Shown piece by piece: positions 12,628-23,227 of a stretch of 24,817 bases of DNA. The stretch's first letter is position 1. Each line of letters begins with the position of its first letter. Under the pieces are notes generated by a model. That model was given only the letters and a program-made list of their open reading frames with translations, was not told the DNA's origin and searched no databases. A program made the position numbers and the translations under genes. The stretch comes from a virus: positions 1-24,817 of the IMG/VR virus record IMGVR_UViG_3300050021_000097; one strand, given 5' to 3'.

Positions 12628-12705
12628 ACCAAAAATCGGAACGGACCAAAAGCGTCTTTGCTCTGAGTGCGGCCGGACCTAGCAGAGGGAAGGCCGATTT
12701 TTGGT
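12628..12705. repeat. Perfect 12-bp inverted repeat overlapping the 3' end of the second HNH gene
   Basis: ACCAAAAATCGG at 12628-12639 is the exact reverse complement of CCGATTTTTGGT at 12694-12705, with 54 bases between. A second, nested 5-bp pair (CTCTG at 12661, CAGAG at 12683) would close an inner hairpin. One arm lies inside the last codons of the HNH gene, the other in the gap after it. The structure could be a transcript 3' end, a cruciform, or an end of a mobile unit. No run of T follows in the gene direction, so a simple intrinsic terminator is not supported. Confidence 0.6.
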
Positions 12706-13455
12706 AACTAAAATGGAAGCCGCAAATTCTACGGGGTCTCTATCTCTTTTCTCTCGATTGCAAGGCGAACAAAGCCATTGCAAGTTTGCAATATCATTAG
12801 AACCACCTCTAGCAAGAGGCATTATATGATCTAATTCTCTTTTTTCCCTCAAAGAGGATGAACAATAAATACATGTCCAGTCCTGCTGTTTCAGCAATTC
12901 GCGAATTTGATCATTGGTGTAAGAACCACCAGATTTATATTTGCGAGCACGGCGTACATGAGAACCTTTTCGGCCATTCTCCAGAACCTTTTCTGGATTG
13001 TTGGTGCGCCATTGCAATGTTCTCTCAATTGCAATTGGAGCAAGACGCTCTGCATGTTTAGTTTTGTAATTTCTATTTTTTTCTCTTATTTTCTGAGGAT
13101 TATCATCGCGCCATTTTTTATCAATTTCGCGACGGCGTTCAGGATTATCCTTTTCCCATTTTCTGGATCTAGCAGATGCCTCTTTCTTATGAGAATTACC
13201 ATATTTCTTATTAGCTAAACGCTTTTGCTCTTTCCGTTCGAGCGAAGCGTTTCTTTCATAATTACGCCATTTCGTTCTGAATTTTTCAGGATGAGCCTCA
13301 CGATGGCGTTTTTCAATATCTTTGCGGCATTTCAGACAAATACCATTTGAAACTTGCCGTTCAGCAATATGCCCATAAGTGCAAGCTTGCCCGGTAAAAT
13401 ACCGGAGCAATCCTTTAGCTTTTGCATCTTGGCGTGATATGAGATCGGTAGCCAT
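12679..13455 (-). CDS. Free-standing HNH homing-type endonuclease (second copy, downstream of coat)
   Basis: The protein has 258 residues from the ATG at 13455. That start is set by a perfect AGGAGG (13464-13469) and by alignment with the paralogue at 15071. The ATG at 13458, just before it, or a GTG at 13473 are alternatives. Residues 10-43 hold a Cys/His module (YFTGQACTYGH then C40-x2-C43), likely a zinc-binding DNA-recognition motif. Residues 50-165 are basic helices with repeated W/NPE-K-x-R units. Residues 193-237 are the HNH nuclease: C195-x2-C198, the D209-H210 pair, N224 in NLQ, then C229-x2-C232-N233. Such enzymes cut DNA at sites lacking their gene and spread by repair. The gene is visibly richer in A+T than coat and than the gene after it, which suggests transfer. 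It separates coat from the 275-residue gene. Confidence 0.9.
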   Translation of the reverse strand: MATDLISRQDAKAKGLLRYFTGQACTYGHIAERQVSNGICLKCRKDIEKRHREAHPEKFRTKWRNYERNASLERKEQKRLANKKYGNSHKKEASARSRKWEKDNPERRREIDKKWRDDNPQKIREKNRNYKTKHAERLAPIAIERTLQWRTNNPEKVLENGRKGSHVRRARKYKSGGSYTNDQIRELLKQQDWTCIYCSSSLREKRELDHIMPLARGGSNDIANLQWLCSPCNREKRDRDPVEFAASILVTKNRPSLC

Positions 13456-13520
13456 CATGGGTGCCTCCTGCACTCGTTGTGGTTAGGGCCTCACTCGATG
13501 TTGATAGCATCGGTGAGGCC
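13456..13520 (-). promoter_or_regulatory. Leader of the second HNH gene: 34-base hairpin plus conserved linker and SD
   Basis: The hairpin is 13487-13520: an 8-bp stem GGCCTCAC/GTGAGGCC, one bulged base, a 5-bp stem CGATG/CATCG, and a 7-base loop. In the gene direction it is followed by TAACCA, CGAGTG, and GGCACCC next to the start codons. The same order occurs before the first HNH gene. On the opposite strand the hairpin is followed by TGTCTTTTATT, so it would also resemble an intrinsic terminator for plus-strand transcripts. Confidence 0.65.
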
Positions 13521-13528
13521 TGTCTTTT

Positions 13529-13555
13529 ATTATAGGTACCGTACTCCCATGTCAA
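13529..13555 (-). promoter_or_regulatory. Candidate sigma70-like promoter before the second HNH gene
   Basis: On the minus strand, TTGACA (13555-13550) and TATAAT (13534-13529) both match the bacterial consensus exactly. The spacer is only 15 bases; an alternative -35, TTGATT at 13559, gives 19. Transcription would begin near 13522, just before the leader hairpin, which would put the hairpin at the 5' end of the RNA. It could drive the HNH gene and the neck and tail genes beyond it. The non-ideal spacer limits confidence. Confidence 0.45.
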
Positions 13556-13591
13556 TCAATTTTTAATCTAAGTATAGTTCAAGTACTCAGA

Positions 13592-14848
13592 TCACGGTGT
13601 ACTATCAGCCGCCTGTACAATCCACTCAGGGCGAGGCACTCCACTGCCAAATAAGATATCTAACCTGTCGATCGGTTGGTCGGTGGTGGCTTCATAGCAA
13701 ACTAAACTACGCATTGATAGTCTATCAAACTCATGCCGAGCCGCCGCGATTACTCCCTTTTCGTTGGGCGGTATCCAGAGTGGCGCGACAACCAGCGTGA
13801 TCGCGTCCGGCGCGTAAGCCAGGTTTTCGCGGTAGGTGACGCTCGCATTGGCGAATGGCGTAATAACCGCGTTGGCTGCCGGGCTTGCCGTAACGGTCTG
13901 GTACTGCTGCGGCGTGTAAGGCAGCCCAGCGTAAGGCACAGCGCTGGCAGGAGGGATAATGGGCGGGTAGAACGAAACCGAAGTGGCATTCGCCGCCGCA
14001 TTAGCCGTAGCAACAAACTGTGCTAAGGTGCCGAGCGAAGAGTAGTTCACCCGGTTTACCGCGTAAACACCGGCAATGGTAAACACATCGCCGGCATTGA
14101 CCGTTCCGCCTAACGCGTTCACCACCAAAGCCTGTCCGGTCTGCGTAGCCCCGTTAACAGTTGCCGTGGCCAAGCTGCCAGTTGTGTGGGACACCACCGA
14201 CTGATCCTCGAACATACGGAACTGCAAAGCTTCGTACATCATGCCTGTATTGTACTGACGGCTGATGGACTCGACCGGGTTTAGCAAGCCACGCAACGCT
14301 TGCTGGATACGAGTATCGGAACGCGGAGCCAAGACAACCTTGCGCATACCCATTTCGCCAAAGTTAGGCGCGGAGTTTTCCTCCAGCAAAGCGCGGGCAA
14401 GCGCAATAGGTCCATCCGTAATAGGAAGGATGTTGTTATTGGCATCAACGTTGGCCGTAATATTGCGCACCGAAGTCGCGGTGTTGACCATAACCTGAAG
14501 CGCGACGTTGGCAGCCAGCGCATTGACGCGCGGAAGCACAATGCGTTCCATGTAGTCATCAACGTCCAACGTGGTTTCCGCAGATGTAAACGCCACGTCC
14601 ACATGCCGCTGCGTGGCCACCGCCAGCAAGAATTGCTGTTCGGTTGTGTCCTGGATCGAAATGCCGGGGCCGTCAGTTACGGTATATTGGTTGGCGTAGC
14701 GAATGCGCAGTTGCGCGCCGATACGTGCGCCCTCAATACCGAACTGAGATTCGAATTGTCTACTTACGTTTTGTATGAAATAGTTAGTATTAAGGAACAT
14801 TCTGATAGAATATCTAGTAATCATGCTCGGCGTCAAAATATTGTTCAT
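13592..14848 (-). CDS. Major capsid (coat) protein, P22 gp5-like
   Basis: This is the shell subunit, 418 residues against 430 for P22 gp5. The start ATG has AGGAG nine bases in front. The first 220 residues fit the HK97-fold core. An N-terminal arm is followed by IGAQLRIRYANQYTVTDG, a likely E-loop region, then VDVAFTSAETTLDVDDY, IVLPRVNALAANVALQV (a backbone-helix-like segment), and KVVLAPRSDTRIQQALRGLL. Residues about 222-345 are Gly/Ala/Thr-rich with GTVNAGDVFTIAGVYAVN. In P22 this position holds the inserted I-domain, with a very similar GDKISFAGV-type strand. The C-terminal core follows (NLAYAPDAITLVVAPLWIPP, SMRSLVCYEA, DILFG). Scaffold lies upstream as in P22, but an HNH gene and a 222-base gap separate them. 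Coat has its own strong ribosome site and probably needs higher expression than its neighbours. Confidence 0.88.
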   Translation of the reverse strand: MNNILTPSMITRYSIRMFLNTNYFIQNVSRQFESQFGIEGARIGAQLRIRYANQYTVTDGPGISIQDTTEQQFLLAVATQRHVDVAFTSAETTLDVDDYMERIVLPRVNALAANVALQVMVNTATSVRNITANVDANNNILPITDGPIALARALLEENSAPNFGEMGMRKVVLAPRSDTRIQQALRGLLNPVESISRQYNTGMMYEALQFRMFEDQSVVSHTTGSLATATVNGATQTGQALVVNALGGTVNAGDVFTIAGVYAVNRVNYSSLGTLAQFVATANAAANATSVSFYPPIIPPASAVPYAGLPYTPQQYQTVTASPAANAVITPFANASVTYRENLAYAPDAITLVVAPLWIPPNEKGVIAAARHEFDRLSMRSLVCYEATTDQPIDRLDILFGSGVPRPEWIVQAADSTP

Positions 14849-15070
14849 AGTATTTATCTCCTAATATGCTCCGCTATACTAGACCAATACTTTGGCTATT
14901 CTAGCGTGAAATTCAATGCCACTTCTTAAGTGGCTGGTTTTAAAAATTAATGGAGCTTCGGAGATATCCGAGCCCTCGCTAGGTTCCCGAGCCTAGGCTT
15001 GGTAACGGGGATAAAAGCCTCGCTAACGTCACGAGTCCGGCGGAGGTGAAATTCCGCTACACCTTAAAAT
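14849..15070 (-). other. Structured coat-gene leader with duplicated hairpin
   Basis: This 222-base non-coding gap lies between the first HNH gene and coat. On the minus strand several hairpins follow each other. They are GCGGA/TCCGC (15040-15057); CTCG/CGAG with loop TGACGTTAG (15019-15035); CTCG/CGAG with loop GGAACCTAG (14975-14991); TCGGA/TCCGA (14958-14971); and a perfect 7-bp GCCACTT/AAGTGGC (14918-14934). The two CTCG hairpins belong to an imperfect repeat (15006-15035 and 14959-14991). Alternative pairings AGGCTT/AAGCCT and CTAGG/CCTAG would exclude them. No ORF or tRNA is present. The ribosome site of coat (AGGAG) ends the region. It may be a translational operator, RNA-processing site or remnant of the HNH insertion; function is not known. 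Confidence 0.5.
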
Positions 15071-15703
15071 TTAGCCGATTAAATCGCAGCGTAATTCTTT
15101 ATTCCAAACATCAGGATGTTTGCCACCTTTCCTACAATTACATGCGCCGCAAAGACCCTGTAAATTAGAAATATCGTTAGATCCGCCAAGAATAAGCGGC
15201 ATCATATGATCTATATGTCTATTGCGCTTTATGGAAACATCACATCCAAAAGCAGCACATTTCCAATTCTGCTTTCGCAACATTTTAACAATTTGCTCGG
15301 CAGTATGAGAACCGCTCGCTGCATTTTTTCTAGCAATTCTATTTCTGACGTTGGCTCGGCTTTTTTCTGGATTGTTTTTCTGCCACTCAGATGCCCTTTT
15401 TACTTGGGCTTTTGCGTTTCTTATATACCAAGATCTCTTAAAATTCCTTACAGCATCAGGATTTTTCCTAGCCCATTCTGAATTGTACTTAGGATGTTTC
15501 TCAATCCAATCTTTATAAAACTGTTTCTTCAATTCTGGATTATTTTCAACCCATATAGCTGTTCTTGAAATAACACATGTCACACAGCAACAATTAGATA
15601 CAAATTTTTCTGACAAATGCCCATGTTTACATGGCTTGCCGGTAAAATATCGCTTTAGACCTCTAGCTTTCGCGTCCTTATAAGATATTATCTCATTAGC
15701 CAT
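15071..15703 (-). CDS. Free-standing HNH homing-type endonuclease (first copy, between scaffold and coat)
   Basis: The protein has 210 residues from the ATG at 15703, chosen because it aligns with the paralogue start; an ATG at 15715 would add four residues. From that start, 24 of the first 43 positions are identical to the second copy, including C25, H29, C40 and C43 (likely zinc site). The middle is basic and helical with NP-D/E-K-x-R repeats (KNPDAVRNFKRSW, NNPEKSRANVRNR), but shorter than in the other copy. The HNH domain spans about 147-192: C149 and C154, D165-H166, N180, C185-x2-C188-N189. All key residues are present, so it is probably active. It splits the usual scaffold-coat pair and is richer in A+T than coat. 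The target may be the sequence around the coat gene in phages lacking it. Confidence 0.9.
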   Translation of the reverse strand: MANEIISYKDAKARGLKRYFTGKPCKHGHLSEKFVSNCCCVTCVISRTAIWVENNPELKKQFYKDWIEKHPKYNSEWARKNPDAVRNFKRSWYIRNAKAQVKRASEWQKNNPEKSRANVRNRIARKNAASGSHTAEQIVKMLRKQNWKCAAFGCDVSIKRNRHIDHMMPLILGGSNDISNLQGLCGACNCRKGGKHPDVWNKELRCDLIG

Positions 15704-15764
15704 TTGGGTGCCCATACACTCGATTGGTTAGAGCCTTGCGGGATGTGACTGTCCCGTGAGGCTC
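15704..15764 (-). promoter_or_regulatory. Leader of the first HNH gene: 34-base hairpin plus conserved linker
   Basis: The hairpin is 15731-15764: GAGCCT/AGGCTC, a 2-base step, CGGGA/TCCCG, and an 8-base loop. In minus-strand RNA the 2-base step gives C/A mismatches; in plus-strand RNA it gives U-G and G-U pairs, so the plus-strand RNA would pair fully. The linker TAACCA, CGAGTG, GGGCACCC before the start matches the leader of the other HNH gene. The stem bases differ between the two, while the total length (34) is the same. No promoter is visible upstream. Confidence 0.6.
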
Positions 15765-15778
15765 GATTATTTCATGGA

Positions 15779-18317: not shown

Positions 18318-20605
18318 TGCACCATCAGATATTTGCCTGGGCGACTTGGATCAGGCAAATAATGATTACCGTCCGGAGCCTGCCTTGCACCAATACTTGA
18401 AGGATCGAACCCCTTCATATTAGAAGAGCCGTTCCCGCTACCATTTGCAGGGCCAGCGTTCAAATCAGCATCGTTGATCTGCTGGATTGAATCATAAATA
18501 TGCTGCCTGCCTTGAACCTCCAACTCATGCTCCATTTGCACTTTTTGTTGCTGCGTCAAAGTCAAATTAATCAGCATTCTTATCTGCGCTTCCATCCGCT
18601 TGGTATCGGAATCGAAGGCTTCAATATTGTGCCGCTCATCACGGCCCCTGATTTTCAAATCCTTGTCCGCCAACTTGACCAAAAGCTCAGAATTGATCGA
18701 CATCAACTTGGCATTTTGTTGCTGTAACTGCATCATTTGCGGTTCGGCTGCTGCATCAAACAGGTAAGGCTTAGTCGCCTTGATTTCCTTTTGCAGCCGC
18801 TCTGCAATCTTGTCTGAGCCTGGGAAATCGCCATACCTGAACAAAAGATCGGCACATGACCCGGCAATTTCATTATTGCTTCGCATAATTATCGACATTG
18901 CCTCCCAAGCCTCCTGCCGCTGTGTGGCATAGGTGGGGCCGGGGTCGGAAACGCACTCGTATTGACCATGCTGCGGATTAAAAGCAATTTTTGCCGCCTC
19001 TTCGACTTCTTTTTCTTGTTGCAACTCCTTAACCGCTTCGTCCTGGTTTGGGTCTATCATTACCCAGCTTTTTTCGCCGTCTTCGCCTTCAATATGAAGC
19101 GTCCGTTTGGTGTCGTAAATCTTCGGTATAAGATCAAGAAGCTGCATACCAACAGCGCGGTCCATATCCGACAAATGTTCAGTAAAATGCCACGTTGCGG
19201 TGTCACCCTGCTCTTTCCTCTGTCCTATCGCCTTACCGGATTCCGGTAATTGGTTGTCTCGTTGCCCGGTTTGCTGCTGCCATTGCCCGCTGATCATCAT
19301 CATCTGGCGTTCAGCGGTCTGCATAGCCGACTGGTAGGCGGCATTTGGCTGTGCGGGCGGTAATCTTTGCGGCGCTTCAATCTTTTGCAGTTCAACCGGC
19401 GCTTCATCGTCAATATCGTTATATAAAAGCACCGCATACTGATTTATATTTGCATTTTTCCATTGCTCTTGTCCCTCAGTAGCCCGTGACGAGGCAATAA
19501 AAGGCGACTTGGGCTGCAAAGCGTTCATCTGCACATCGGTAGAGGCCGAATAGTTCAACATTCGCTGGGCGTCGATCAAAGGCCGCGTATGTCCTTTCCG
19601 ATCCAGCGTTTTATCAATTACAAGCTCGCGGCCGACACATCGGCAAATTGGTATATATTTACCGGCCCAATCCCCACGATCAATAATTTGGTCGCCGGCA
19701 ATCAAAAACCATTCTACTTGGTCATCAAATACGGGCCGCGTGCCGCCTTCAACTATTCCGTCTTTAATATCTTGCATCAAAGCGTCGTAAATTTCCTTGC
19801 CGCTTTCCTCTTTAATTTCGGAGGCAAGCTTTTCAACCGCATCCCGCCCATCCTGATTATACCAGACAAACGTATCCTTCTTTTGGCTCTTGCGATAATA
19901 TTTGCATAGCATTATTTCCTTGTCGGAAATCCAATCGGCAAACGCGCTGTCTATAGGTGAGGTGCCAACCTTGTTTTTCCATTTAGGATACTTGCGGTTA
20001 AATTCCTTGCGCGGCATCGGATCAAATACAAAGCCGAAATTGGCATCCAGGCCGTCCGGCTCGCGTATCCAAGGGTCAAGGTAAACGCCTGTAGGATCTC
20101 TTGACGCCTTGAGATAAATATCTTGGTCTTTTGTTCGGTTAGAAACATATGCCGTTTCAATAAGCATGTAGCCAATGCCGCCATCTACTTGCTGCTCGCA
20201 AACTTTCCTACGCTGTGCGCTTCCTTTGGAAATGTATTGAATGCGGTCAATCAAGGTTTGCATAATTTCAGCAGACTTATAGCTGGCTTTGCCGCCAACC
20301 GGCCTAACCTTGGCTCCAAAGCCGTTCTTGGAAATTGTATTGATAATAATATCGTTATGAGGCCGCGTATTGTTAATCGTTAGACACGGCAGATCATTAC
20401 CGCCATCGGATCGGTCAGCGTAAGTTTTGGTAGGCCACTGCCAAGCGTTTCTGGAATCGCCGTTGGCAAACTTAATATCCTCCCTTGCACGCTCGTCTTC
20501 TACGCCTTGCCACTCCTTGCAAGCTTTCCAGCGATCACTGGCTTCCATCACGATACCGGGATCGCCCGGCGGAAAGCTGTCATCCAATGCGGCAAAGTCA
20601 GCCAT
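18314..20605 (-). CDS. Portal protein, P22 gp1-like
   Basis: The portal forms the 12-subunit ring at one capsid vertex through which DNA enters and leaves. This 763-residue product is close to P22 gp1 (725). It has the N-terminal stem and wing pattern (ERAREDIKFANGDSRNAW, LPCLTINNTRPHNDIIINTI, ICRCVGRELVIDKTLDRKGH). It also has the region LIDAQRMLNYSASTDVQMNA and a crown-type helix (SGQWQQQTGQRDNQLPESGK, AIGQRKEQGDTATWHFTEHL, DLIPKIYDTKRTLHI). The C-terminal 150 residues are Gln-rich and helical (QLQQQNAKLMSINSELLVKL, TLTQQQKVQMEHELEVQGRQ), as in the long barrel of P22. The last 50 residues are Gly/Ser/Asn-rich. It starts in a TAATG junction with the large terminase, which is a classic packaging pair. 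Confidence 0.88.
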   Translation of the reverse strand: MADFAALDDSFPPGDPGIVMEASDRWKACKEWQGVEDERAREDIKFANGDSRNAWQWPTKTYADRSDGGNDLPCLTINNTRPHNDIIINTISKNGFGAKVRPVGGKASYKSAEIMQTLIDRIQYISKGSAQRRKVCEQQVDGGIGYMLIETAYVSNRTKDQDIYLKASRDPTGVYLDPWIREPDGLDANFGFVFDPMPRKEFNRKYPKWKNKVGTSPIDSAFADWISDKEIMLCKYYRKSQKKDTFVWYNQDGRDAVEKLASEIKEESGKEIYDALMQDIKDGIVEGGTRPVFDDQVEWFLIAGDQIIDRGDWAGKYIPICRCVGRELVIDKTLDRKGHTRPLIDAQRMLNYSASTDVQMNALQPKSPFIASSRATEGQEQWKNANINQYAVLLYNDIDDEAPVELQKIEAPQRLPPAQPNAAYQSAMQTAERQMMMISGQWQQQTGQRDNQLPESGKAIGQRKEQGDTATWHFTEHLSDMDRAVGMQLLDLIPKIYDTKRTLHIEGEDGEKSWVMIDPNQDEAVKELQQEKEVEEAAKIAFNPQHGQYECVSDPGPTYATQRQEAWEAMSIIMRSNNEIAGSCADLLFRYGDFPGSDKIAERLQKEIKATKPYLFDAAAEPQMMQLQQQNAKLMSINSELLVKLADKDLKIRGRDERHNIEAFDSDTKRMEAQIRMLINLTLTQQQKVQMEHELEVQGRQHIYDSIQQINDADLNAGPANGSGNGSSNMKGFDPSSIGARQAPDGNHYLPDPSRPGKYLMVQ

Positions 20606-23157
20606 TACTTGCTCATCCAGCCAGTACCGCGTTCAAAGGGCATTGTGGCATTAAAAGAAGGTATCGGCGCAATGCGTGGGACTTTCTCTTTAGGATCGCG
20701 ATAGCCAGACGCAAATGTTCTCAGCGCATCCGAACCGTGTGAAGCCCAATCGTGAAGCGGGTTATCTCTGAACATTTTTAAGCGATCATCCCATTCCCTG
20801 CGGTAATTTCTTAGCGCGTTCAACCCGCGTTCGCACCTAACTTCATCAATCCAAGCCTGATCCAAGAATTTCCTAACTGCATTTATGCCGTCCATAACCG
20901 AGGATTGAGGAACAATAATCGGCTTATACCCCAGCCCTTGCATAGTATCAGCGCGACTTAAGCCTTTGTTTCCTAGTTCCCTTACCGCCATATCGTGCGG
21001 GAAATAATGCAACCCATAAACCCAGCGGTGTTCTTTTTTCTTTTCGTCAAGTACCCTTGCGTATTCGTCTAACCCAACGCCGGCCGCTTCGTAGTAATCG
21101 ACTAAACGGTACTCACGTCCGGCCCTTTGAATAAACCAAATTGCAGTCGAGTCTGAAACACCCAAGTCCCAACCCGTGTGAACCAATACAGAGCGGTCAA
21201 TCGGCACCTTACCAATGCGCCCCTCTTTTATAGCGCGATTAAGATAAGCGCCGTAATAAGAACCGACCAAAGCCGCATCAAACGAACAATTATATTCTTG
21301 TTCAAAAAATGCGTTGCCTTCGTCTTTGCCATAATCCGACTGGTATTCCTTAAGCTCGGAGACAAGCTGCGCAGTCGTAAACACCCCGGTATCTTTTGCG
21401 CTCAAGACCTCGGCAAACCAAGAAGGGTCTGACCGCGCCAACTGCAAAGTTTTGGCGGCGTGATTAGCCCCGCGTGGCGTCGTAATAAACAAAGCCCAGC
21501 CATTGTTCTCCACCAAGATAGGCCGCAAAAAAGCCCAAGCATTTGGATCGGCCAAGGCCCATTCCGAAAACACAATACCGGCAGGCGTAGAACCAAGAAG
21601 GCTGTTGTAGTTATCCGAACCGACGACGCGCCACAAAGAGCCGTTCTTGAACTCGATTACCATATCGTTCTTGCGTGTGTTGGCCCTCATTTCCAACGGA
21701 AACGCCTGGTCAATACGTCTTATGCCAGTATGTGGCGATACCGCATCCCAAATAGCCTTACGCGCTTGGCTAGCTTCCGGCAGCATGTGCCAATATTCGC
21801 CAACGCGAAGATGCGCCGCCTTGGCCGCCCAGTTAAGGGCGATGTCGTCTTTACCTGAATTGTGAACTAAATATCCGTTAGCGAAAAAACAGCCGTGTTT
21901 TTCAGTCTCAATATCCCACGTCTCAGCGAGACGAGATGAGAATTTTTTGACGAGGGCCTTTTCACATCCAAACCTTGCTTGCCGCGAGCGGCGATCTTCA
22001 CACAACCGCAATGCAGCGCAGCGTTTTTCTTCCTTGCCGATAACCACAATATTTTGCAAAAAGCGCGCAATGTGGTCTTGGCGAGTTATCCTGACTTTCC
22101 AATTCTCGCCGTGACTTTCTTTCGAGATTGCCGACGTAATACCAATCTTTCGTAAAAGCGCGGAATAATCATCAGCCAAAATCCTGCTCATGCCAGCATG
22201 AATAGTGACCTGCGCGGCAGGCTTTATCTCTCTCGGACCTCTTTTTGCATCTCGAACCGTTCGGCCATTTTTCTGTGCGTAGATAGAGCCATCCCCGGCC
22301 ATTACGCCGCCGAATAGTCTCCAAACACTTGAATCCGTCCATTGCCACACTTGGCGCGGAAGCCGTCGCTCACGTTTAGTGGCCAATGCTCCTTCGACTC
22401 TAAACCACTCTTTCAGAGGATTAGGAACCTCGCCGCCGCCGCGCCGTCCATTGGACAAGCCAAGATCGTATCCGCGTCCCTTGGGGCGAAGAATAGGGGT
22501 GACGGAGAACAATCCAGAGGCTAAATGCGCCACACGATCAATAAGCCGACGATTTACGTTCGTGAATTTCGGCTGTTGTCCGTGACAAACATAGCCATCT
22601 GTTATCAAACAACCAACCAGTTCCGCTAAGTCGCCAGCATCAATCGTTCCAGCGAATGCCCGCTCGAATTGGGCAACCGACAAATTGCGGCGTTTTATTT
22701 CAGAGATAGGCACCCAACCGGCTCGATTCCACAACGGATGGAACCCGAAAAAACGATGATCTTCCGTTGTCTCAATCTCTGGATAACCGGACGCCTGGAA
22801 CTTGGTGACGTTCTTGCGGCCGGAATGCCATGTCGATTTTACAACATCAGGAACCAGGCAATGTCCGTCCCATGATAGAATTTTATCTCCGGTTTTAAGT
22901 TCCTCGATTTGCTTCCATTGACCGTCTGCGAGAACTACTCGCGTTCCCACCGCAACGCATCTTCTGTGCCAAATTATGCAAGCTCGCTTACCGCCGTTGT
23001 CTAAATAATCCCAAGCGTTTTGCTGGTAATAACGCGGCTTCCAATTATGGGGGAACTTTGCCGCGTCTATTTGTAAAGCTAGTTCAGGAGCTAGAATTTT
23101 GTCTAGCTCTATTTTTTGAGCGGGCGTAAGTGAAGCAATAATAGCTTGTGCGTTCAT
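20605..23157 (-). CDS. Terminase large subunit (packaging ATPase/nuclease) with an in-frame intein
   Basis: This motor cuts concatemeric DNA and pumps it into the prohead through the portal. I use the ATG at 23157 (850 residues); a TTG at 23175 would add six. Removing the intein (C67 to N433) leaves 483 residues, a normal size. The exteins join as WHRR/SGKD, the Walker A motif, with K436 the expected ATP-binding lysine. Further motifs are Walker B-like GIVFSEWA (527-534, S-E in place of D-E), the coupling motif TTPRGAN (559-565), and the RNase H-like nuclease: D664 and D669 in WDLGVSD, D722 in HDMA, and D803/D810 near HDWASHGSD. Activity depends on protein splicing, since the intein splits the P-loop. 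It starts 70 bases after the stop of the glycosidase-like gene and overlaps portal by one base. No small subunit gene was identified in the window. Confidence 0.92.
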   Translation of the reverse strand: MNAQAIIASLTPAQKIELDKILAPELALQIDAAKFPHNWKPRYYQQNAWDYLDNGGKRACIIWHRRCVAVGTRVVLADGQWKQIEELKTGDKILSWDGHCLVPDVVKSTWHSGRKNVTKFQASGYPEIETTEDHRFFGFHPLWNRAGWVPISEIKRRNLSVAQFERAFAGTIDAGDLAELVGCLITDGYVCHGQQPKFTNVNRRLIDRVAHLASGLFSVTPILRPKGRGYDLGLSNGRRGGGEVPNPLKEWFRVEGALATKRERRLPRQVWQWTDSSVWRLFGGVMAGDGSIYAQKNGRTVRDAKRGPREIKPAAQVTIHAGMSRILADDYSALLRKIGITSAISKESHGENWKVRITRQDHIARFLQNIVVIGKEEKRCAALRLCEDRRSRQARFGCEKALVKKFSSRLAETWDIETEKHGCFFANGYLVHNSGKDDIALNWAAKAAHLRVGEYWHMLPEASQARKAIWDAVSPHTGIRRIDQAFPLEMRANTRKNDMVIEFKNGSLWRVVGSDNYNSLLGSTPAGIVFSEWALADPNAWAFLRPILVENNGWALFITTPRGANHAAKTLQLARSDPSWFAEVLSAKDTGVFTTAQLVSELKEYQSDYGKDEGNAFFEQEYNCSFDAALVGSYYGAYLNRAIKEGRIGKVPIDRSVLVHTGWDLGVSDSTAIWFIQRAGREYRLVDYYEAAGVGLDEYARVLDEKKKEHRWVYGLHYFPHDMAVRELGNKGLSRADTMQGLGYKPIIVPQSSVMDGINAVRKFLDQAWIDEVRCERGLNALRNYRREWDDRLKMFRDNPLHDWASHGSDALRTFASGYRDPKEKVPRIAPIPSFNATMPFERGTGWMSK
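21859..22959 (-). mobile_element. Intein with LAGLIDADG-type homing endonuclease inside terminase
   Basis: The intein has 367 residues. It begins with C67 (block A, CVAVGTRVVLADG) and has a block B-like TTEDH (130-134). Block F is TWDIETEKHGCFFANG (413-428), and the end is YLVHN (429-433), followed by extein S434. The penultimate His and terminal Asn needed for splicing are present, so it is probably active. The endonuclease carries two dodecapeptide motifs, LVGCLITDGY (180-189, D187) and LFGGVMAGDG (281-290, D289), both with the catalytic Asp. The insertion point inside a P-loop is a preferred site for inteins. Base composition appears somewhat richer in G+C than the extein parts, by eye only. 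Confidence 0.93.
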
Positions 23158-23227
23158 ATTCTTCGTAAGGCCCAAGCCAAAATTAGTAAGCTAGGTGTGC
23201 AGTACAACATTATCCCGTGCCAGATTG

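Follow-up and report, generated by a model that had tools for sequence, protein, structure and literature searches.

The HNH genes and their leaders

This study concerns two HNH endonuclease genes and the leader that precedes each of them in a stretch of viral DNA of 24,817 nucleotides (nt), referred to here as the window, which comprises positions 1 to 24,817 of the IMG/VR virus contig IMGVR_UViG_3300050021_000097. We propose that each leader belongs to the gene of a small antisense RNA encoded on the opposite strand. The genes, HNH1 (12679–13455, minus strand; 258 amino acids (aa) from its ATGGCT) and HNH2 (15071–15703, minus strand; 210 aa from its ATGGCT), were both assigned to Pfam HNH_5/HNH and phrog_1035. 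They lie on either side of a gene for a P22-like major coat protein (13592–14848, minus strand; PF11651, phrog_283). A previous reading of the letters alone (the sequence-only reading) had described two paralogous HNH genes around a coat gene, and the comparison bore this out: HNH1 and HNH2 are identical at 24 of 43 N-terminal residues and at 32% of positions over the full alignment, and the coat protein is of the P22 type. Their homologous starts are the ATGGCT sequences at 13455 and 15703, the former lying downstream of the GTG given in the list of open reading frames (ORFs). Each gene has an HNH catalytic domain and no intron or intein, the criteria for a free-standing homing endonuclease, and the two nucleases would be expected to be active in homing.

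The same series of elements lies upstream of both starts. As the sequence-only reading had it, a 34-base hairpin is followed by TAACC(A), CGAGTG and GGCACCC, and ATGGCT comes next. The 34-base hairpin of the mRNA leader (H1) occupies 13487–13520 for HNH1 and 15731–15764 for HNH2, both on the minus strand. The segment between H1 and HNH1 (13450–13486, minus strand) contains CTAACC, a second hairpin (H2, with arms CGAGTG and CACCC and the Shine-Dalgarno sequence in its loop) and the ATGGCT; its CCA can pair with the UGG of the start codon. The corresponding segment of HNH2 (15698–15730, minus strand) contains TAACC, an H2 of the same description and ATGGCT. Upstream of H1 there is a −10-like hexamer, TATAAT (13529–13534, minus strand) for HNH1 and AATAAT (15766–15771, minus strand) for HNH2; the former is a predicted sense promoter, and its complement would form the T-rich tail of the antisense RNA. 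The conserved block extends into the HNH coding sequence, where it includes the GCT codon and a predicted antisense promoter.

Hairpin structure and strand asymmetry

Pattern and covariance-model searches yielded about 40 distinct copies of the element in unrelated phages, most of them directly preceding genes for free-standing homing endonucleases. In 40 related copies, H1 had 146 two-sided compensatory cells compared with 49 ± 8 after shuffling, and a covariation score of 0.688 compared with 0.220; the signal was lost when the alignment was slid by one column. The arms of H2 differ in sequence among copies with pairing kept (CGAGUG/CACCCG, CGAUG/CAUCG, UGACG/CGUCA, GAACC/GGUUC, CGAUC/GAUCG and others), and the Shine-Dalgarno sequence stays in the H2 loop. 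For the window sense leaders themselves the folding z-scores were −4.0 (HNH1) and −2.4 (HNH2). These results support selection on the architecture of H1, beyond chance, as had been proposed from the sequence.

Among the copies, the −10-like box ends about 5 bases before H1 (mean best score 4.6, compared with −2.1 to 0.6 elsewhere), and the endonuclease mRNA would therefore start at the base of H1. This position, which puts the hairpin at the 5′ end of the mRNA, is also what would be expected if the leader acted in the mRNA only, with a 5′-terminal hairpin followed by a second one that hides the Shine-Dalgarno sequence and start codon, and with no antisense RNA. The placement of the Shine-Dalgarno sequence in H2, the possible CCA–UGG pairing and isolated compensatory cases (ACAU/AUGU and CCGC/GUGG) agree with such control, and it has a precedent in phage T4, whose homing endonucleases I-TevI, SegB and MobE are held low by mRNA hairpins that sequester the Shine-Dalgarno sequence (PMC2988022). 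The T4 case resembles the present one in that phage homing endonucleases are kept low translationally through RNA structure at the ribosome-binding site; however, in T4 the mRNA hairpin is specific to each gene and is accompanied by a late promoter, and PMC2988022 describes neither an antisense RNA nor an element common to many families.

Comparison of the two strands argued against control by the mRNA alone. A T4-like hairpin is possible in the mRNA of the element, but the complementary strand folded better in 42 of 43 copies, with means of −39.4 and −29.5 kcal/mol for the antisense and mRNA strands in the paired comparison. On the mRNA strand, mismatches were of the A·C rather than the G·U kind, by 23:3 in the outer stem and 32:0 in H2 over all copies. 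We first took the element for a sense-strand leader containing a start-codon helix, and dropped this view because a nearly invariant A·C mismatch in the canonical H2 is a G·U pair on the other strand. The predicted antisense RNAs of the window had energies of −44.4 and −41.1 kcal/mol (z = −7.6 each) and the mRNA strand −27.7 and −24.6 kcal/mol; these values come from slightly different stretches, and the paired test over 43 copies is the fair comparison. Two stems, with the start codon, Shine-Dalgarno sequence and 5′ hairpin covered, were found in all copies. Together with the promoter positioned within the genes, described below, these results make control by the mRNA alone unlikely.

The covariation, with its preference for G·U on one strand, implies a folded RNA. 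It thus also bears on the possibility that the element is a DNA-level part of a mobile unit, such as a recognition or recombination site, whose fold is incidental. Such a site would fit the recurrence of the element with many different endonucleases, and it would fit two loci (L347 and L354) that keep the leader and about the first 30 codons with the gene body swapped; but the same element precedes bacterial non-endonuclease genes, symE and an IncQ repA, and we consider this explanation very improbable.

A predicted antisense promoter within the genes

Scores for an antisense −10 hexamer peaked at coding position 13 (and 14), within codons 5–6, with a mean of −0.45 compared with −5.3 ± 0.75 for the remaining positions. 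The top score at 13/14 exceeded that of 401 control ORFs starting with ATGGC from the same loci (Mann-Whitney p = 2.6e-11, an optimistic value in that kinship among the copies was ignored). The antisense −35 hexamer peaked at 36/37, 17–18 bp from the −10. The A predicted as +1 faces the third base of codon 2; this would account for the use of GCT there in place of other alanine codons.

In the window, the predicted promoter of antisense RNA 1 lies inside HNH1 (13415–13443, plus strand), with its −35, TTAGCT, at 13415–13420, a spacer of 17 bp, and its −10, TATGAG, at 13438–13443. The predicted RNA of about 80 nt (13450–13533, plus strand) would start at A13450, opposite codon 2 of HNH1, and end past the 13487–13520 hairpin and the T-rich tail. 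For antisense RNA 2, the predicted promoter inside HNH2 (15664–15691, plus strand) has TAGCTT at 15664–15669, a spacer of 16 bp and TATTAT at 15686–15691. The predicted RNA of about 75 nt (15698–15772, plus strand) would start at A15698, opposite codon 2 of HNH2, and would have an intrinsic-terminator-like hairpin at 15731–15764 with the tail GATTATTTCA.

The plus-strand terminator-like site called at 15731–15764 could instead be taken as the transcription terminator of a neighbouring gene, beside an ordinary HNH insertion. The H1 covariation, the antisense −10 peak and the strand asymmetry all disfavour that view, and it leaves unexplained the conserved CURACC, H2, the GCU codon, the promoter within the gene and the occurrence of the element beside unrelated genes; we give it almost no credence.

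Relation to SymR, R1162 and other known RNAs

The predicted RNAs resemble SymR of Escherichia coli (RF01809), a 77-nt antisense RNA that covers the start codon, Shine-Dalgarno sequence and 5′ hairpin of symE and has a promoter within the ORF, with its −10 at position 14 (PMC1891008). A silent change in that −10, which lies within the symE ORF, abolishes SymR, and SymR affects translation more strongly than it affects mRNA decay (PMC1891008). Unlike the present targets, SymE is an AbrB-fold SOS toxin under LexA control and not a homing endonuclease, and the window copies have no Rfam match. The RNA of the R1162/RSF1010 IncQ plasmids (RF00043) has the same length, the string CUAACCA ... GGAG ... 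AUGGCU and three helices in the Rfam consensus; it differs in governing plasmid replication functions and in its stem sequences, and the window copies fall under the family threshold. PtaRNA1 (RF01811) is likewise an antisense RNA, with 72 model positions and the same stem order.

Two covariance models, R1 and R2 (the latter limited to the hairpin and CURACCA), were built from phage copies only. Both R1 and R2 matched the E. coli symE leader exactly opposite symR (E = 1e-6, 1e-7 in 3.5 kb), and R1 matched the leader in the repA region of an IncQ1 (R1162-like) plasmid (E = 5e-6 in 2.5 kb). Bacterial copies were found with R2 in 9 of 369 genomes from the class of a Thauera genome and in 12 of 385 Alphaproteobacteria. 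Most of those inspected had the full architecture before small non-endonuclease ORFs; a few are probably due to chance. Their −10 peak was at position 14, the same as in E. coli symR. The bacterial relatives matched Rfam symR in the antisense orientation (E = 9e-6 to 1.5e-4) and Plasmid_R1162 (E = 1e-5 to 1e-4), and one of them (L433) matched PtaRNA1 weakly in antisense (E = 0.05). In a BLAST search of plasmids, one of the bacterial copies aligned with the beginning of a gene of the SymE family (80% over 51 bases). A pattern scan of genome contigs with the phage H2 sequence had given chance matches only, owing to the sequence variability of H2; the bacterial copies emerged later with the structural model.

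The bacterial copies L432–L455 precede small uncharacterised ORFs. The seven bacterial ORFs tested received no name from NCBIfam; plasmid DNA relatives of one of the bacterial proteins (L435) are annotated as a zincin-like metallopeptidase domain protein.

The sequence-only reading had treated the element as a sense-strand leader. Given the strand asymmetry, the antisense promoter and the symR matches, an antisense RNA gene on the opposite strand appears to explain it better. The window copies very likely share architecture and mechanism with the symR and R1162 RNAs. Common descent with them is likely, although about 75 bases do not prove it.

In cyanophage S-PM2, the antisense RNA CfrI of about 225 nt, which has no assigned function, links psbA to a homing endonuclease gene (PMC2984593). 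CfrI resembles the predicted RNAs in that it is antisense, touches the gene of a homing endonuclease and belongs to a lytic phage, and differs in its length and in its link to psbA. Our searches of the open-access literature returned no description of a SymR-like antisense RNA for any homing endonuclease; the only antisense RNA near one was CfrI. The design, already described for a bacterial SOS toxin and for plasmid replication, is seen here on many unrelated phage homing endonucleases.

Proposed mechanism

We conclude, with a probability of about 0.84, that each HNH gene carries a 5′-overlapping, cis-encoded antisense RNA gene of the SymR/R1162/PtaRNA1 design, predicted to keep the nuclease low. 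A promoter within the first 14 codons would drive an antisense RNA of about 75–85 nt, which would start opposite codon 2, cross the start codon and Shine-Dalgarno sequence and fold into two stable stem-loops. Its end would lie beyond the 34-base hairpin, with the far arm and T-rich flank of that hairpin serving as terminator. The endonuclease mRNA, beginning at the base of the same hairpin, would show complementary loops, one of them holding the Shine-Dalgarno sequence. Contact between loops followed by full pairing would then block ribosome binding and hold the endonuclease low. The transcription of both RNAs, the loop contact, the duplex and the translational repression are parts of the model predicted from sequence and from the known RNAs. 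Predicted energies were −173 and −158 kcal/mol for the cognate duplexes and −80 kcal/mol for the crossed ones. The HNH/antisense pairs are not claimed to be type I toxin–antitoxin systems; the targets are putative homing endonucleases.

Besides the kinship among copies noted above, several observations weigh against this conclusion. A simple consensus scan called neither antisense promoter of the window, both of which are modest, and it called a terminator for copy 2 only (15731–15764, plus strand). The control set of related homing endonuclease genes without the leader was small (n = 6). The window leaders matched no Rfam family at gathering score, nor any up to E = 5, and they are therefore not filed as members of those families. 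The bacterial relatives also remained below gathering, at 39–44 bits compared with 61 for symR, 42 compared with 55 for R1162 and 27.5 compared with 47 for PtaRNA1. Finally, the sequence shared by the two window copies leads to predicted non-cognate pairing, and some cross-talk is possible.

Distribution among phages

A strict pattern search turned up a single unrelated phage, in which the same leader stands ahead of an Endonuclease VII-like gene; relaxed patterns found 26 distinct copies. Model R1 added copies with other H2 sequences in the same records, as well as copies in named isolates. Pseudanabaena phage Pam1 and Synechococcus phage Ssp-JY40 have the element before an HNH gene, Rhizobium phage RHph_X2_25 has it with a GIY-YIG endonuclease directly after the major capsid gene, and Pseudomonas phage PS-1 also carries a copy, at the start of an endonuclease gene near 22502–22580. 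The best R1 match in 100 control loci (1 Mb) had E = 6e-4; in the leader set there were 52 matches below 3e-5. A BLAST search of cultured phages with the consensus leader returned nothing real. Each record had 1–4 copies, which ruled out a generic phage-wide promoter.

The genes downstream of the element encode HNH_5, HNH_3 with AP2, NUMOD4 with HNH_3, Endonuclease_7 and LEM-3-like GIY-YIG proteins; one more (L035) is GIY-YIG-like by eye and unnamed by Pfam. The sequence-only reading had proposed testing by covariance search whether the hairpin lies upstream of HNH genes that share the N-terminal module of HNH1 and HNH2. Most matches did lie directly upstream of homing endonucleases, but those of the HNH_3/AP2, NUMOD4-HNH, Endonuclease VII-like and GIY-YIG types lack the module. 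A link to this RYFTG module was ruled out because GIY-YIG, NUMOD4 and HNH_3/AP2 genes carry the element too. Relatives with the shared module are often without the leader, as are most of the nearest HNH relatives by protein similarity.

Head genes are frequent neighbours of the unit. Genes for major head proteins adjoin it in the window, in RHph_X2_25, in L164 and in a phrog_334 group (L285, L337 and L358), and terminase or portal genes adjoin it in L233, L020 and L035. In L285 (4018–6654), an unrelated phage with an unrelated capsid family, the phrog_334 major capsid gene has a leader-bearing endonuclease gene on either side, just as the coat gene does in the window; the two endonuclease genes of L285 belong to different HNH types.

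Some phage copies precede short non-endonuclease ORFs (63, 44 and 91 aa) and possibly a hypothetical gene of Ssp-JY40: L402 1335–1414 (Pam1), L403 1721–1796 (Ssp-JY40), L391 2919–2994 and L399 1501–1586 (weak). The Rfam int-alpA RNA scored above gathering at L401 2608–2673 and L432 2124–2193; in RHph_X2_25, a second homing endonuclease, of Seg-like type, has an int-alpA RNA immediately upstream.

Mobility of the unit

The sequence-only reading had also proposed that leader and gene move as one unit. In its favour, the association recurs across phages before many homing endonucleases; the leader, however, is not tied to a shared N-terminal module. L347 and L354 are about 96% alike in their flanks, leader and about the first 30 codons, and then have different gene bodies. 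L347–L352, L355 and L356 are near-identical phage populations to L354, with the same insertion site and leader, the endonuclease body being replaced after about 30 codons in L354. In L257 (3072–3149, minus strand) the leader is complete and the ORF behind it runs for 7 codons before a stop, which would fit decay of the endonuclease gene with retention of the antisense unit.

The flanks of L233 and L328 were too diverged for an empty-site comparison. The window relatives compared were near-identical contigs, one of which (L001) starts within the coat gene and cannot show the presence of HNH2. The structure of the intergenic stretch between the coat gene and HNH2 was unremarkable. Within the terminase large subunit gene (window 20605–23175, minus strand) lies an intein that has a LAGLIDADG endonuclease domain (Pfam LAGLIDADG_3 and Intein_splicing); the phage therefore has at least three homing-type endonucleases.

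Implications

Where T4 has gene-specific mRNA hairpins, many unrelated endonucleases here share one antisense-RNA design, which is also found on an SOS toxin and in plasmid replication. One design on so many unrelated genes means that the regulation itself looks like a reusable, mobile module. The finding connects phage, plasmid and chromosomal antisense RNAs that Rfam separates into families. It supplies a rule for annotation (a 34-base hairpin, CTRACC, a Shine-Dalgarno loop and ATGGCT), and it can be tested in the culturable phages PS-1, RHph_X2_25 and Pam1.

We tentatively suggest, at somewhat less than even odds, that a single antisense-RNA cassette of common descent has been adopted by plasmid replication genes, SOS toxins, small prophage or plasmid genes and no fewer than five families of homing endonucleases in phages, where it would be a built-in dimmer and might also be a zygotic-induction switch. 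A selfish homing endonuclease has to keep the harm to its own phage in check. If the suggestion is true, a phage that enters a cell lacking the antisense RNA would produce endonuclease in a burst, and homing would be favoured.

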